In this document: positions 48,000 through 53,909 of the stretch, one piece after another | Position numbering within the stretch: position 1 is the first letter of the stretch | How the letters are laid out: each line of letters starts with the position of its first letter | The notes under the pieces: generated by a model | What the model saw: only the letters and a program-made list of their open reading frames with translations | Databases searched by the model: none | What the model was told of the DNA's origin: nothing | NCBI GenBank assembly: GCA_028047635.1 | Contig: JAOFXR010000008.1 | Location: 1 to 64,000, forward strand | DNA from: Verrucomicrobiales bacterium | Lineage (GTDB): Bacteria; Verrucomicrobiota; Verrucomicrobiia; Verrucomicrobiales; DEV007 | DNA: 64,000 nucleotides | Direction of reading: 5' to 3' | Program-made: the position numbers and the translations under genes

Positions 48000-48998
48000 C
48001 TACTGCCAAAGCGACTCGAGACTGTCGGTTCGCAGGATGACGGTGCGAGTCCGTTCTTTTCCCGGGGTGATTACGACCAGTTCAAAGGTGGATCCGACCG
48101 GTTTTGATCGGATTGCCGAGAGCAATTCAAAGCGACGGGTGAGGGGGCGCCCATCGCAGGAAAGAATTAAGTCATGCGCTTTGATTCCGGCCCCGTTGAG
48201 AGGGCGTCCTTCAAAGACGGGATTGACGAAGAGGCCTTTGGTCCCGGGAGGAAATTTTTCCAGCATGTCCAAGTCAGCATTGCGGAGTTCCCAGACATAA
48301 CCTCCGATTCCCGGGGTGGCGGCAACGTTACGGGATTTGAGTAGTTCACGGATCGCTGACGGGGGGGAGACTAGGCTGAGTCCGGATGAGGCCGCTTTTT
48401 CGCCAAGCAGTCGGCCGTGCTGAATTCCGACAATTTGACCGCTTTGGTTAATCCACATCCCGCCGGAGGTAAATACCGGATTAATCCCTGCGGCGAAGAA
48501 ATGACGGATGTGCCCTTTGGACGAGGCAAAATCGGTGTAGCTGATGCGCGAATCAGCGACCTTTCCCGGAAGGATGAGCATGCGTCTTCTTAGCGCAGGG
48601 CCGAGATTGTAGAGGCCCTGAGTGTCTTGAGGAATCGACCGGGCAATTGCCAAGCCTCCGCGACTGGTCGCTTCTGGATCCACTTCGAGGAGCGCCAAAT
48701 CGTGCCCGAGATCGTAAGCGGAGAGAGAGGCGGGAAAGGTTTCATCGTCGTGAGTCACAATCGAACACGTATCACGGGGGCTATGGAAAAGGTGGGCTGC
48801 GGTGAGCGCGTAGATGTTGCCCGATTCGGCTTTTACGAGGGCTCCGCCCCCTCGCATTTGACCATTGATATGAACTTCGATCGCGGCACGGCGCACTTTT
48901 TGAATCATGCTGGCGCTCAATTCATCCGCCGCTCTTGCGTGAAAGCTTGACCAGAGGCAGCAAAGTAACAGGACGTAGGTTCCTCGTAAAACAGGCAT
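48000..48998 (-). CDS. exported trypsin-like serine protease with PDZ domain
   Basis: A signal peptide (LRGTYVLLLCCLWSSFHARA) leads into an S1 chymotrypsin-like domain. The triad appears as His69 in LTAAHLF, Asp100 in DLGHDLALL and Ser178 in VFTSGGMWIN; the classical GNSGGP reads FTSGGM here, so the oxyanion-side Gly and the Pro are changed. A C-terminal PDZ domain (about 250-325) contains NGAGIKAHDLILSCDGRPL. This is a DegP-like layout with one PDZ. Activity is likely but reduced specificity determinants cannot be excluded. It converges with ppk1 at a gap of 20 bases. Confidence 0.85.
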   Translation of the reverse strand: MPVLRGTYVLLLCCLWSSFHARAADELSASMIQKVRRAAIEVHINGQMRGGGALVKAESGNIYALTAAHLFHSPRDTCSIVTHDDETFPASLSAYDLGHDLALLEVDPEATSRGGLAIARSIPQDTQGLYNLGPALRRRMLILPGKVADSRISYTDFASSKGHIRHFFAAGINPVFTSGGMWINQSGQIVGIQHGRLLGEKAASSGLSLVSPPSAIRELLKSRNVAATPGIGGYVWELRNADLDMLEKFPPGTKGLFVNPVFEGRPLNGAGIKAHDLILSCDGRPLTRRFELLSAIRSKPVGSTFELVVITPGKERTRTVILRTDSLESLWQ

Positions 48999-49021: not shown

Positions 49022-51094
49022 TTAGAGAGTTGCGGCCTGCTTGGCAATTGTGATTTTGATTATGAATCGCGTTCCTTCATGCATTTCGTTGAGGAAAAGA
49101 GAACCTTCTTCAATCAGACCTTTCTGATCCAATACGGCGGTGTTTTCGTAGTTCGTGCCTGGGTCCCGCTTCAGGAGTTCAAATTTCACGCCGTGGCCAG
49201 AGGCAACTTTCTTTCGCAGCTCGTGCGTCACCCTTCCCATCGTAAAGCGTGAATTCACCTCACAAAAGGTGCGCAGAGCGATTTCGCCATCGGGCTTCCG
49301 GTGCACGTAAGCATCGACTCCGACGGGGCCTTCGTAGCGGAGTTCGTTCAGCCACGATTCGAGTGCGGCAGTGAAGGGCGCGTTGTTTTCGTAATGCTTC
49401 AGTGCCTCCTGCATCAGAAATTGGGACATCTCCGTGCTCAGGCCCTGACAGAATTTGTTCACGCTGATACTCCCCCGGTATTGGCCGGAATCGGCGATGA
49501 TCTGTCGTATCAAGCCGAGTTGGGACAGCTTCCCGTCTTTCATCTGATACTGAACTGAAAAGTCCAATTCCCTGCGATGAGCCGGTTCAAGGATGAGGCC
49601 GCCTTCATGGAGAATTTTATCGCTGAACACAGGTGCTTCACCGCTTCTGACTTGGCTTAAGGTGATGCGTCTCATACCGCCTCCGGCAGTGGAGAACGGT
49701 CGTTTGATGATCGCTTCCGTGTATCCTAAATCGAGCAGGTCGTCGATTGCCTCAGTCAACTCATCCGGAGTGGAGCAGGCAAAAGAGAGGCCGGCCCAAT
49801 CTGAAAGTGACTCTACCTGTTCCGCCTTGGAAAAAAGCGCACGGCGGCTGTCCTCCCAGTGAAAAGCGGGGGACTCATGTGAGGTGTTTTTCTCAAGGCA
49901 TGAGAAGTGTTTGGCGACCTCCGGTGTAAGTCCCCAGGGACGGAAGTCATTGAGCTTCCGGTCCCGCAGGAGACTATCGGGAGCGAGGCTGCCGTTTTTG
50001 TCGAGTGGTTCGATTTCCGGCAGTGGAAATCCGAGTCCGGCGAGAGTTGCCCGGTGCGCCAGTGAAGGGGGGCGACGCATCAGAATGACATCGTCACGAC
50101 GTGCGAGGACCGCGGTTACGATCTCGAGGTCTTCTATCACGGAGAGGATGCGCTTGTCGGGATGATAGGGGGCAGGATGAACTGCGACCGCGTTTTCGGC
50201 TTGGGGATTGAAGAGAAACACATTCGGGGTCCGTCCATTCGAACGCTCAAAGAGCGAGAGCTGGTGGATGTAATCGTCATCAAACCCTGCTTCCCGCCTC
50301 CCTTCGACATTGAAACCGGTTCGATTGCCTTTTGCCCGTGAAGGGGAGAGAGGGAAGTGAAGGCGGGATTTCAGAGCTTCCCAATCGCTTTCTGACTCCT
50401 CTTTCCACCGACGAAACCAATGGAGTCCGTAGCCTACGTGCGAAATTTCGTCCTCGTAGATGCGCTTCAGAATCGCTGCGCTTTTGGTGTCTCCAGCTTG
50501 CCCGAGGACGTCGCTGTAGTAGTTCGCGTAGTCCAAGTTGGCCTGTTCGAAGGTCAGGCTGAGGCGGGAGACATAGTCGATCGGGGATTCCATGCTCGAA
50601 ACCGCGTCCCAGAAAAAACGACTGAGAGGGAACTCGCCGAACTCCACTCCGCAGTCCTTCATTCTTGCCAAATACCATCGGGTGTGCCGTTGCTCTTCCC
50701 GCAGCGTGTTGGCAAGCCCGACCCGGAATTTGTGAGGTGCATCCGGAAAACGCAGCAGCGCGAGGGCCATTAGTTCGGCGGCGAGGAGTTCGTGATTCGC
50801 GAAAAAATGAAGCAGCGTTCCGCGATTTTCATCCGTTACCAGATGAGCGGAAGCGGGGAGTTTGGGCCGCGTCGCAGAACCTGAGGCAAATTGAATTGAG
50901 TCAGATCGGGCCGGAGTCAGGTCGTGCGATAGAGCGATTCGCGCCGCGGGGCCTTCAGGGCGGGCGATACAGAGAGAGCGCGGCTTCAGTTTCTCGTCGA
51001 GTTGGTTCGAGAAAAGAACCCGCTGAGCCAATTCAGTGATCGACTCATCTTCAGTTGACCGGCTATGGGGTGACGAAATTGAAGTTTTAGACAT
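49022..51094 (-). CDS. DUF455 ferritin-like domain fused to an ATP-grasp domain
   Basis: 690 residues from ATG 51094. The N-terminal half matches DUF455, a ferritin-like fold related to the MiaE di-iron enzymes: NHELLAAELMALALLRFPDA with Glu107, TLREEQRHTRWYL (133-137 EEQRH), LTFEQANLDYANYY with Glu183, and YEDEISHVGYGLHWFRRWK with Glu216 and His219, which together can hold two irons. After a linker comes an ATP-grasp-like half: a pre-ATP domain (VFLFNPQAENAV onwards), AIIKRPFSTAGGGMRR with Lys464, GGLILEPAHRRELDFSVQYQ and the metal-binding FCEVNSRFTMGRV (Glu612, Asn614). I know no characterised protein of this layout. It is divergent from, and close to, an LptF/LptG permease gene. Confidence 0.82.
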   Translation of the reverse strand: MSKTSISSPHSRSTEDESITELAQRVLFSNQLDEKLKPRSLCIARPEGPAARIALSHDLTPARSDSIQFASGSATRPKLPASAHLVTDENRGTLLHFFANHELLAAELMALALLRFPDAPHKFRVGLANTLREEQRHTRWYLARMKDCGVEFGEFPLSRFFWDAVSSMESPIDYVSRLSLTFEQANLDYANYYSDVLGQAGDTKSAAILKRIYEDEISHVGYGLHWFRRWKEESESDWEALKSRLHFPLSPSRAKGNRTGFNVEGRREAGFDDDYIHQLSLFERSNGRTPNVFLFNPQAENAVAVHPAPYHPDKRILSVIEDLEIVTAVLARRDDVILMRRPPSLAHRATLAGLGFPLPEIEPLDKNGSLAPDSLLRDRKLNDFRPWGLTPEVAKHFSCLEKNTSHESPAFHWEDSRRALFSKAEQVESLSDWAGLSFACSTPDELTEAIDDLLDLGYTEAIIKRPFSTAGGGMRRITLSQVRSGEAPVFSDKILHEGGLILEPAHRRELDFSVQYQMKDGKLSQLGLIRQIIADSGQYRGSISVNKFCQGLSTEMSQFLMQEALKHYENNAPFTAALESWLNELRYEGPVGVDAYVHRKPDGEIALRTFCEVNSRFTMGRVTHELRKKVASGHGVKFELLKRDPGTNYENTAVLDQKGLIEEGSLFLNEMHEGTRFIIKITIAKQAATL

Positions 51095-51213
51095 CTTTAG
51101 GCTATCAAAGCTGGCGCTTGACCGTTTCATCTAATGACGCGAACCTTGCAACCGTTTCAGGGAAGCAAATAGTCAGGATCGCTGATAGATCTTCTTCCCA
51201 TCAACTATGGATC

Positions 51214-52956
51214 ATGATTGACTTTCTGACAAGAAACCCCGTATTCCGCTTTTATAAGTGGCTCTTTGTAAAGGGGCGGGATTCGTTTGTCTCTTTGACT
51301 GAGAAGGGGGACAAAGGGCCTTTGGTGATCAAGGTGTGCATGGCCGTGCTGTTTTTCAGCATGGCATCAGTTTTCCTCAGCACGTGGGGCGATTACCGTG
51401 ACGCGGGGACCTCTCAATTGGGCCTGGAAAGTGGCCCTGCTACTGAATTGCCACCGGTGGCTCCTATCATTTGGCGCGGGCTCAGTGTCGTGCTGGCATT
51501 ACTGGGAGTCGTCGCTGCTTTTTTGATTCGTCCGACTCGCTCGAATCGGAACCAACAGCGATTTATTATTATCGCGCTTTGGATGGCCGCGTTAGCAGGT
51601 TTGGCCTCGTGGCTGCCGCCTGACGTGATTGCCACGCAGCGCGCGTTGACGGGTAAGGCACTCGCGGGGGAGACTCCTTCCATTGTCGCCTACTTTGGTC
51701 AGGTTGTGCTCGTTGCCTCTTTGATTATCAGCATCCCGCTTGCGGCCTGGTTGTACTTTCGACTTTCTTTAATGGATCGATACGTCGTTCAGTCCTTTCT
51801 TTCGCCGTTTCTGTTTTGCTTGTTTTCGTTCACCGCCATTTGGGTGATTGCGGATATGAATGATCACTCAAAATACCTGGCTCAGATGAAAGACGGTCAG
51901 GCGATCACTTACTATATCGTTCAGATACCCTTTGTGATTCTATTCGTGATGCCCATCGTGATGTTGCTCGCAGGATTGTTTTCACTCACGACGCTTTCAA
52001 AGTCGAATGAACTGATCAGCATGATTGGCGCGGGCCGAAGCGTGACCCGTATCCTCATGCCTCTTTTCATTATCGGCCTTTATAGCTCGATGATCTGCCT
52101 TGCCTTCAAGTTCCAATGGGCTCCCACTTCGGTCGGAACCAGCGATGCGATGATGGAATCTGCGAGGGCCAAGTTTCGGGCAAAGCGTAAGGGGGAAGAA
52201 GTGGAGCCGGTGCTGTATTCCAAACGCGGATGGATGCATGTGAATGAACCCGATCAGCGAACCTGGTTTGTCGGCGCGGTGCCTTTAAAGCTCAGCGATC
52301 CGATGAGTGATGTCGTTGTCGCCAAACTCGATGACAAGGGACAGCCTCAAGTTGTCTGGATTGCGAAACGGGCAAAGTGGGTGTGGAACACGGTTCCGCC
52401 TCAGTGGCAGCTCTTCAGCGTGACCGTTTACACCTATGATGCCGAGCGGATCCCGCGGATGACGAGGCACGCCCAGCTCACGATTGATGATTGGTCCGAG
52501 ACTCCCTGGAAAGTGTTGAGTTCGGCGCAAAATCCCGAGTATCTCGGTATGCCCGGACTGACGATGTATTTGGATGCCAATGCGGATATGAATGACGATC
52601 GACTCGCTGCTTTTCGAACGAACCGTTGGAATATCTTCGCCGAGCCTTTCACCTGTTTCGTCATGATTCTTGTGGCGGCGCCTTTGGGAGTGGTCTACTC
52701 GCGGCGCGGCGGGATGGCCGGTGTGACCGGTGCGATCATTCTTTTTGCAATGATGTATCTAATGCGCACCACCTTTATTGCCCTGGGGCAGGGGAGCAAT
52801 ATGGGGCCTTTTCTCGCGGCCTGGTTGACCAATTTTATAATTGCTACGATCGGATTGTTCCTCCTTGCATTCCGGGCTCGGAATCGTGAGATTCCGAAGC
52901 TGAGAAATCTGATTATGGCTCCTTTCAAAAAGAGGCCGGCGGTTCCCACTGCCTGA
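51214..52956 (+). CDS. LptF/LptG (YjgP/YjgQ) family permease with extra N-terminal membrane domain
   Basis: Inner-membrane component of lipopolysaccharide export. The canonical part starts near residue 185 (MDRYVVQSFLSPFLFCLFSF) and continues with VMPIVMLLAGLFSLTTLSKSNELISMIGAGRS, split here, a periplasmic beta domain, and spans NIFAEPFTCFVMILVAAPLG and TNFIIATIGLFLLAF. It is 580 residues instead of the usual 350-400, because about 185 residues with four predicted spans precede the LptF/G fold. ATG 51214 is chosen over 51118, which would overlap the divergent gene. Confidence 0.88.
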   Translation: MIDFLTRNPVFRFYKWLFVKGRDSFVSLTEKGDKGPLVIKVCMAVLFFSMASVFLSTWGDYRDAGTSQLGLESGPATELPPVAPIIWRGLSVVLALLGVVAAFLIRPTRSNRNQQRFIIIALWMAALAGLASWLPPDVIATQRALTGKALAGETPSIVAYFGQVVLVASLIISIPLAAWLYFRLSLMDRYVVQSFLSPFLFCLFSFTAIWVIADMNDHSKYLAQMKDGQAITYYIVQIPFVILFVMPIVMLLAGLFSLTTLSKSNELISMIGAGRSVTRILMPLFIIGLYSSMICLAFKFQWAPTSVGTSDAMMESARAKFRAKRKGEEVEPVLYSKRGWMHVNEPDQRTWFVGAVPLKLSDPMSDVVVAKLDDKGQPQVVWIAKRAKWVWNTVPPQWQLFSVTVYTYDAERIPRMTRHAQLTIDDWSETPWKVLSSAQNPEYLGMPGLTMYLDANADMNDDRLAAFRTNRWNIFAEPFTCFVMILVAAPLGVVYSRRGGMAGVTGAIILFAMMYLMRTTFIALGQGSNMGPFLAAWLTNFIIATIGLFLLAFRARNREIPKLRNLIMAPFKKRPAVPTA

Positions 52957-52985: not shown

Positions 52986-53909
52986 ATGGCAATCATCCAG
53001 GATTGGAAAATACGCGCAACGAGCGCTCGCTGTGAGATCACAGAAGAACCTTTTGTCGACAAGCAGGAGTTCTATACCTGTATTTTTGATGATCCTGAGT
53101 CGGATGGTTTTCTGCGTAAGGATTTCTCGGTCGATTCGTGGAATGAAGCGAAAAAAACAATCGATCCGGCACCGTTTTCGTTTTGGAAATCGACCTATCA
53201 TGCCCCGGTTACGGCGGTCGCGGAAGCCAGTCATGTCGACACGTCTGCGGAAGGGATGTTGCGTCGTTTCATCGACGAGGATGATCAGAAAACCGAGAAC
53301 GTCCGCTACATTCTCGCCTTGATGCTCGAACGAAAGAAGGAGTTCGTTCAGACCGATGCTCAGGAGTCCGATGAGAGGCGATTACTATTCTATGAGCAGG
53401 CTGCAACGGGAGATGTATTCATCGTCGCTGACCCCGGTTTGAAGCTCGACGAGATTGAAACCGTTCAGCGCGAGGTCGCCGATCTGCTCCTAGCCGAGGA
53501 ACGACGAGCTACGAGCGTGGCACCGGCTGATTCTGACGAGGCTAGCGAGACGGCCGAGCCCACAGACTCAGAGGACCCGGAAGCCGAAGTCATTGAAGAA
53601 TCAGAGCCTCCGATTGAGCTCGTCGAGAAACTGGATGAGCTTGAGGCCGGCGAGGCCGAGGCCACCGAAGAAGAGCATGAAGAGACCGCCGCCGCCCCAC
53701 ATGAGGCGGTTGCCCTTTCCGACGAGAATCTTCCGGAGCCCCTCGGAGCGGATGCGCTTGTAGATGCCGGGGAAGAATTCGCCAATGACGTAGACGAAGA
53801 GATGGAGAACTCCAAGGAGGACGGAGAACCAACTCAGCCATCTAATGAGAGGGACCGCGACTTCAAGGCTGATGATGGGCTCGGCGAGCATATGTCGGAG
53901 ATCAGCTGA
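52986..53909 (+). CDS. acidic protein of unknown function
   Basis: The first 165 residues form a compact region: MAIIQDWKIRATSARCEITE, FVDKQEFYTCIFDDPESDGF, FSFWKSTYHAP, MLERKKEFVQTDAQESDERR and FIVADPGL. Two early cysteines (16 and 31) might bind a metal. The remaining 140 residues are a highly acidic, Glu/Ala-rich tail, probably disordered. I recall similar proteins in other Verrucomicrobiota, without a known role. It follows the LptF/G gene after 29 bases in the same direction. The end overlaps the convergent DUF1460 gene by 8 bases. Confidence 0.78.
   Translation: MAIIQDWKIRATSARCEITEEPFVDKQEFYTCIFDDPESDGFLRKDFSVDSWNEAKKTIDPAPFSFWKSTYHAPVTAVAEASHVDTSAEGMLRRFIDEDDQKTENVRYILALMLERKKEFVQTDAQESDERRLLFYEQAATGDVFIVADPGLKLDEIETVQREVADLLLAEERRATSVAPADSDEASETAEPTDSEDPEAEVIEESEPPIELVEKLDELEAGEAEATEEEHEETAAAPHEAVALSDENLPEPLGADALVDAGEEFANDVDEEMENSKEDGEPTQPSNERDRDFKADDGLGEHMSEIS

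Follow-up and report, generated by a model that had tools for sequence, protein, structure and literature searches.

A Verrucomicrobiota protein joining a DUF455 ferritin-like domain to an ATP-grasp ligase-like region in a single chain

Introduction

DUF455 is a widespread protein family for which, to our knowledge, no reaction is known. The combined use of a di-iron oxidase and an ATP-grasp amino-acid ligase within one pathway has precedent, with the two enzymes encoded by separate genes (PMC2922099), and 25 or more gene clusters have been reported to pair such enzymes, also as separate genes, including MboA with MboC/MboD in the case of mangotoxin (PMC13185094). The gene described here, from a member of the Verrucomicrobiales, joins a DUF455 domain and an ATP-grasp region in one open reading frame (ORF). 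Each half is of a known kind, and no description of the combination was found in the open-access papers searched.

Results

Extent and reality of the gene

The window (the whole stretch of DNA analyzed, 64,000 nucleotides) comes from a draft assembly (3.18 Mb, 193 contigs); the coordinates of the fusion gene, its domains and its neighbors are collected in Table 1. An earlier note on this DNA had placed the gene at 49022-51094. The ORF was retained but its start was moved, position 51094 being an in-frame second Met located twelve codons after 51130. The start at 51130 fits better, since the N-terminal motif M-K/E-R-S-R/S-x-S-F was found at or near the start of several close homologues. Both an assembly artefact and a chance ORF were ruled out as explanations, because homologues were read alike in dozens of independent assemblies; relatives with named records were mostly MAGs of Verrucomicrobiota. 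Based on domain matches, structure comparison and a genome survey, the one-chain fusion of DUF455 and ATP-grasp proposed in the earlier note is real and old. The search with PADLOC gave no defense-system match.

Table 1. Position of the fusion gene, its predicted domains and sites, and adjacent genes in the window.
Feature	Position	Strand	Evidence or remark
DUF455/ATP-grasp fusion gene	49022..51130 (stop codon included)	minus	uninterrupted ORF, 702 codons/702 aa; dozens of genomes have a homologue over the full length
DUF455 ferritin-like domain, residues 69-288	50267..50926	minus	PF04305 E 3.1e-47; ferritin-like model
Six predicted di-metal ligands E114, E146-x-x-H149, E195, E228-x-x-H231	50438..50791	minus	on four helices
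ATP-grasp peptide-ligase-like region with N-terminal pre-ATP-grasp subdomain, residues 300-702	49025..50233	minus	structure comparison, profile search
Predicted ATP/Mg site K435, K476, D606 (G-x-D), E624-x-N626-x-R628	49247..49828	minus	conservation
Trypsin/PDZ (HtrA-like) gene	48000..48998	minus	PF13365, PF13180; 23 bases after fusion stop
LptF/LptG-type permease gene	51214..52956	plus, divergent	PF03739 E 4e-55

The DUF455 half

PF04305 matched the fusion protein with 161.6 bits (E 3.1e-47; cut-off 34.3) and was matched by all 62 aligned homologues. Residues 26-300 were modelled with a pLDDT of 91.6 and four long helices (100-127, 133-159, 183-211 and 215-242), each bearing one ligand set. 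The six predicted ligands (E114, E146, H149, E195, E228 and H231) were invariant in 62/62 homologues, in agreement with the ferritin-like half with Glu/His pairs for two metals that had been proposed, and were also kept in standalone DUF455 proteins of Alphaproteobacteria. On sequence and model, the pattern E, ExxH, E, ExxH is a complete predicted class-I di-iron site.

The solved folds nearest to the DUF455 model were Dps-like proteins, bacterioferritin, rubrerythrin and aldehyde-deformylating oxygenase (ADO), with Z values of 14-16. The best Foldseek E value was just 0.008, and the resemblance is therefore one of fold, not of any single enzyme family. The kinship between DUF455 and the MiaE hydroxylases put forward in the earlier note was faintly visible in one standalone DUF455 protein, which matched the MiaE model (PF06175) at E 0.0036, under the model cut-off, while the fusion protein gave no match to it at E up to 1. 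Mean column identity was 61% for the DUF455 half vs. 34% for the ligase half, the latter figure coming from an alignment that takes in three distant Bacteroidota proteins. The better conservation of the DUF455 half, which extends to the surroundings of the ligands, suits a substrate-binding catalytic domain.

Weak matches to the DUF455 model (20-55 bits) came from further ORFs, mostly of 390-620 aa and present in several copies per genome (G469, G221 and G487, among other genomes); these probably represent another ferritin-like family.

The ATP-grasp half

Every Pfam family scored below its cut-off for residues 300-702, the best PreAtp-grasp match in the fusion protein reaching 13.2 bits (cut-off 27.5), and weak profile matches were spread across the members (LdmS in 17/54, PreAtp-grasp in 19/54). 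The profile of the 62 homologues matched 7R8P, an ATP-grasp protein of solved structure, at E 4e-4, and a profile of the C-terminal half only reached 7R8P at E 2e-4 and 8YND at E 0.013. The entries 7R8P/7R8Q (SAOUHSC_02373) are presumably LdmS, L-aspartate--L-methionine ligase, and the LdmS model was in agreement the commonest NCBIfam match across members.

The full-chain AlphaFold model had a pLDDT of 90.9 and a pTM of 0.87. In the structure comparison, residues ~300-702 were closest to PGM1 (3wvq, Z 28.5, aligned over about 360 residues), followed by 8ynd (26.8), BesA (8yi6, 25.6) and 7r8q (24.9); the peptide-ligase group scored Z 23-28.5, vs. 20 and below for ATP-grasp enzymes of the purine pathway, and Foldseek gave E 1.9e-12. 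As modelled, this region clearly has an ATP-grasp fold; the earlier note had named the lack of a structural match as the result that would speak against its ATP-grasp assignment, and the match found was strong (Z up to 28.5). Judged by its sequence, the ligase half is a divergent branch of the ATP-grasp superfamily, and amino-acid and peptide ligases being the nearest structures to its model, it may catalyze carboxylate-amine ligation. Matches to ECF-transporter ATPases (E 0.004-0.02) were discarded as chance-level and contradicted by the fold.

Residues K435, K476, D606, E624, N626 and R628 were invariant in 62/62 homologues, and in the profile alignment D606 and the E-x-N-x-R motif matched identical residues in 8YND. 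In ATP-grasp enzymes such residues bind ATP, Mg and the acyl-phosphate. For both halves, the active-site residues claimed in the earlier note were found, with little or no variation across the 62 sequences.

Distribution and joint inheritance of the two halves

Among 142 genomes of near relatives, 87 contained DUF455 above the cut-off. Nearly all of these copies lay in ORFs about 600-800 codons long; several of the shorter ORFs corresponded to incomplete contigs or broken copies, the latter present in a few lineages (e.g. L058, where the frame is split). Of 388 genomes drawn from across the phylum, 22 gave strong DUF455 matches and the same 22 gave strong matches of the ligase half, and in 22/22 a single ORF, 648-776 codons long, encoded both halves. 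A smaller group, also at phylum level and found via a locus whose record is titled Gemmatimonadetes (L109), contained DUF455 in 21/64 genomes, in every case within an ORF of 616-776 codons; ten of these loci were inspected, and each encoded the two halves in a single frame. The pairwise divergences of the two halves were correlated (Pearson r 0.83; Mantel test, 0/999 permutations as high), as expected if the halves were inherited together. Because the halves share one ORF in 22/22 genomes and in a second phylum, with correlated divergence, the fusion is ancient and has become fixed, and its two halves have been passed on as one unit. The counter-explanation foreseen in the earlier note, of separate genes joined by an assembly artefact, failed, as the halves were never split in the 388-genome sample of the phylum.

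One apparent standalone ligase half (G089) proved to be a fragment, its contig of 3786 bases ending within the match.

The heme-copper oxidase gene COX1 was detected in 80/87 genomes with the fusion, but also in 33 genomes without it, and complete genomes of one genus (g19), among those listed, carried neither the fusion nor a heme-copper oxidase. The co-occurrence is loose and confounded by descent, and is compatible with an O2-using enzyme.

Occurrence of each half alone in other phyla

Searches with tblastn of plasmid records revealed DUF455 alone in Proteobacteria, plus a diverged Geobacillus copy. The ligase half by itself, at 371-402 aa, occurred in Bacteroides, Parabacteroides and Prevotella. 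A peroxiredoxin gene adjoined DUF455 in 2/4 annotated alphaproteobacterial loci, which could suggest a function in redox protection. The Bacteroidota with a standalone ligase half are known anaerobes; ligation therefore need not depend on the oxidase half in every organism, nor on an oxidized substrate.

The Bacteroidota ATP-grasp proteins of ~400 aa were unannotated (L111:5992-7197, L112:5989-7101 and L113:5989-7191), and nifJ and an AAA ATPase lay beside the gene in 2/3 of these loci.

Genomic neighborhood

The product of the trypsin/PDZ gene is secreted-looking, with TAAH and TSGG motifs. A homologue lay directly downstream of the fusion in 14/80 loci, all from the closest relatives, in which the gene often overlaps the fusion gene or sits a few bases away, and the two are possibly co-transcribed as a two-gene operon in close relatives only.

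The start of the permease gene is likely at 51214, not at the TTG of the ORF at 51118, since homologues begin at the equivalent Met; an N-terminal membrane extension of about 190 aa precedes its Pfam domain. The permease neighbors the fusion in 24/80 loci, all from the closest relatives, and distant loci differ. The envelope or lipid substrate suggested in the earlier note from this neighbor is consequently unsupported, and permease and fusion are probably not functionally linked.

At distant loci the immediate neighbors of the homologues included MutS, phosphoglycerate mutase, M42 peptidase, TauE, hexapeptide transferase and AcrB, among others. No conserved operon or partner gene (pathway enzyme, reductase or transporter) was found beyond close relatives across 80 homologous loci, and given the unrelated neighbors at distant loci the enzyme looks self-contained.

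Two further genes were observed near the fusion. An acidic protein starting MAIIQDWKIRATSARCEITEEPF is encoded at 52986-53909 on the plus strand, with homologues at the same place in 20/80 loci, and in nine Roseibacillus-type loci (e.g. L108:7177-7998) a CBM9-like gene, restricted to this clade, lies just upstream of the fusion, often with an overlap of a few bases.

Discussion

The reading somewhat favored here is that of a bifunctional enzyme, in which the di-iron half acts oxidatively on an amino-acid-like substrate, and this molecule or the product formed from it is ligated to an amine by the ATP-grasp half; both folds, the complete ligand sets and the fixed, ancient fusion, all computed, were counted in its support. 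Counted against it were the standalone ligase half of anaerobic Bacteroidota, the peroxiredoxin genes beside DUF455, the loose co-occurrence with COX1, and the finding that no pathway, reductase or transporter gene is a conserved neighbor. The protein would be a self-contained, soluble enzyme. In its four-helix DUF455 bundle, two irons would most likely be bound and O2 used to oxidize a small molecule resembling an amino acid, by hydroxylation, desaturation or cleavage, while the ATP-grasp half most likely uses ATP to activate a carboxylate as an acyl-phosphate that is then joined to an amine, so that both sites would act in consecutive steps on one small peptide-like metabolite. The identity of the metal, the use of O2, the peptide-type ligation and the order of the steps are what we infer from these predictions. 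More tentatively, the product might be an oxidized dipeptide-like metabolite not yet described, made by a single-chain oxidase-ligase from a stand-alone gene of Verrucomicrobiota and of one or more further phyla.

Other explanations of the same architecture were considered. The ligase could be the sole enzyme, protected or gated by a DUF455 domain with a structural, regulatory or O2/peroxide-sensing function, as a rubrerythrin-like or ferroxidase-like di-iron domain would have. This is consistent with the ligase half standing alone in Bacteroidota, with bacterioferritin/Dps and rubrerythrin folds scoring equal to the oxygenase ADO, and with the peroxiredoxin genes adjoining DUF455 in two annotated loci, yet the higher conservation of the DUF455 half, including residues around the ligands, makes a purely sensing or protective role rather unlikely. 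Still less probable is a macromolecular target, in which tRNA, the terminus of a protein or a peptide side chain (modified as in graspetides or by RimK) would be acted on by the ligase and also hydroxylated by DUF455. MiaE hydroxylates tRNA and its model weakly matches a standalone DUF455 protein, and ATP-grasp enzymes include RimK-type and RiPP ligases; however, the closest folds are ligases of free amino acids or short peptides, the RimK family was matched once, weakly, among 54 members, and no conserved precursor-peptide gene was seen among neighboring ORFs of at least 100 aa.

The fusion might also be uncoupled, with halves that catalyze unrelated steps and are only co-expressed. The separate occurrence of each half in other phyla would agree with this, but within the phylum the halves never part or stand alone in 388 genomes, and their relative orientation is predicted with fair certainty (pTM 0.87), which makes such an arrangement very improbable.

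For DUF455, a fused partner of recognizable chemistry, never separated from it across the phylum, limits the range of likely substrates, the probable one being an amino-acid- or peptide-like molecule. Should both sites be active, the bifunctional oxidase-ligase would condense into one gene the type of oxidase-plus-ATP-grasp pathway currently mined for natural products, carried as a stand-alone chromosomal gene by environmental bacteria, in contrast to the gene clusters of known pathways.

Comparison with known systems

Among proteins with one of the two halves, standalone DUF455 proteins, such as that of Sinorhizobium meliloti (UIJ93556.1), resemble the fusion over the full domain (27-30% identity) and have the same six ligands, but comprise about 275 aa and lack the ATP-grasp half. 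The best structural matches of residues 300-702, the pheganomycin peptide ligase PGM1 (3WVQ/3WVR) and the ATP-grasp peptide ligase 8YND from Streptomyces, share 15-18% identity with it, and the Mg/ATP residues of 8YND are equivalent to those of the fusion; neither has an oxidase domain. LdmS (presumably 7R8P/7R8Q), which the ligase half matched best in the profile searches (E 2e-4; Z 24.9), is without a DUF455 domain, and against its model NF047900 the fusion scores 12.4 bits, vs. an equivalog cut-off of 475. Three Bacteroidota proteins annotated as "hypothetical protein" (WP_122246558.1, WP_004363789.1 and WP_237923076.1) are full-length relatives of the ligase half (21-22% identity) with the same motifs, keep the ATP/Mg residues except K435, and lack the DUF455 half.

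The pairing proposed for the fusion, an ATP-grasp ligase with a di-iron oxidase in one pathway, is found in BesA/BesC and MboC/MboD/MboA, BesA being also a close structural match to the ligase half (Z 25.6). In those systems, however, the enzymes are encoded by separate genes of a cluster, and the oxidase has the heme-oxygenase-like (HDO) fold (PMC13185094), whereas in the protein described here the oxidase candidate is a ferritin-like DUF455 domain within the same chain as the ligase.
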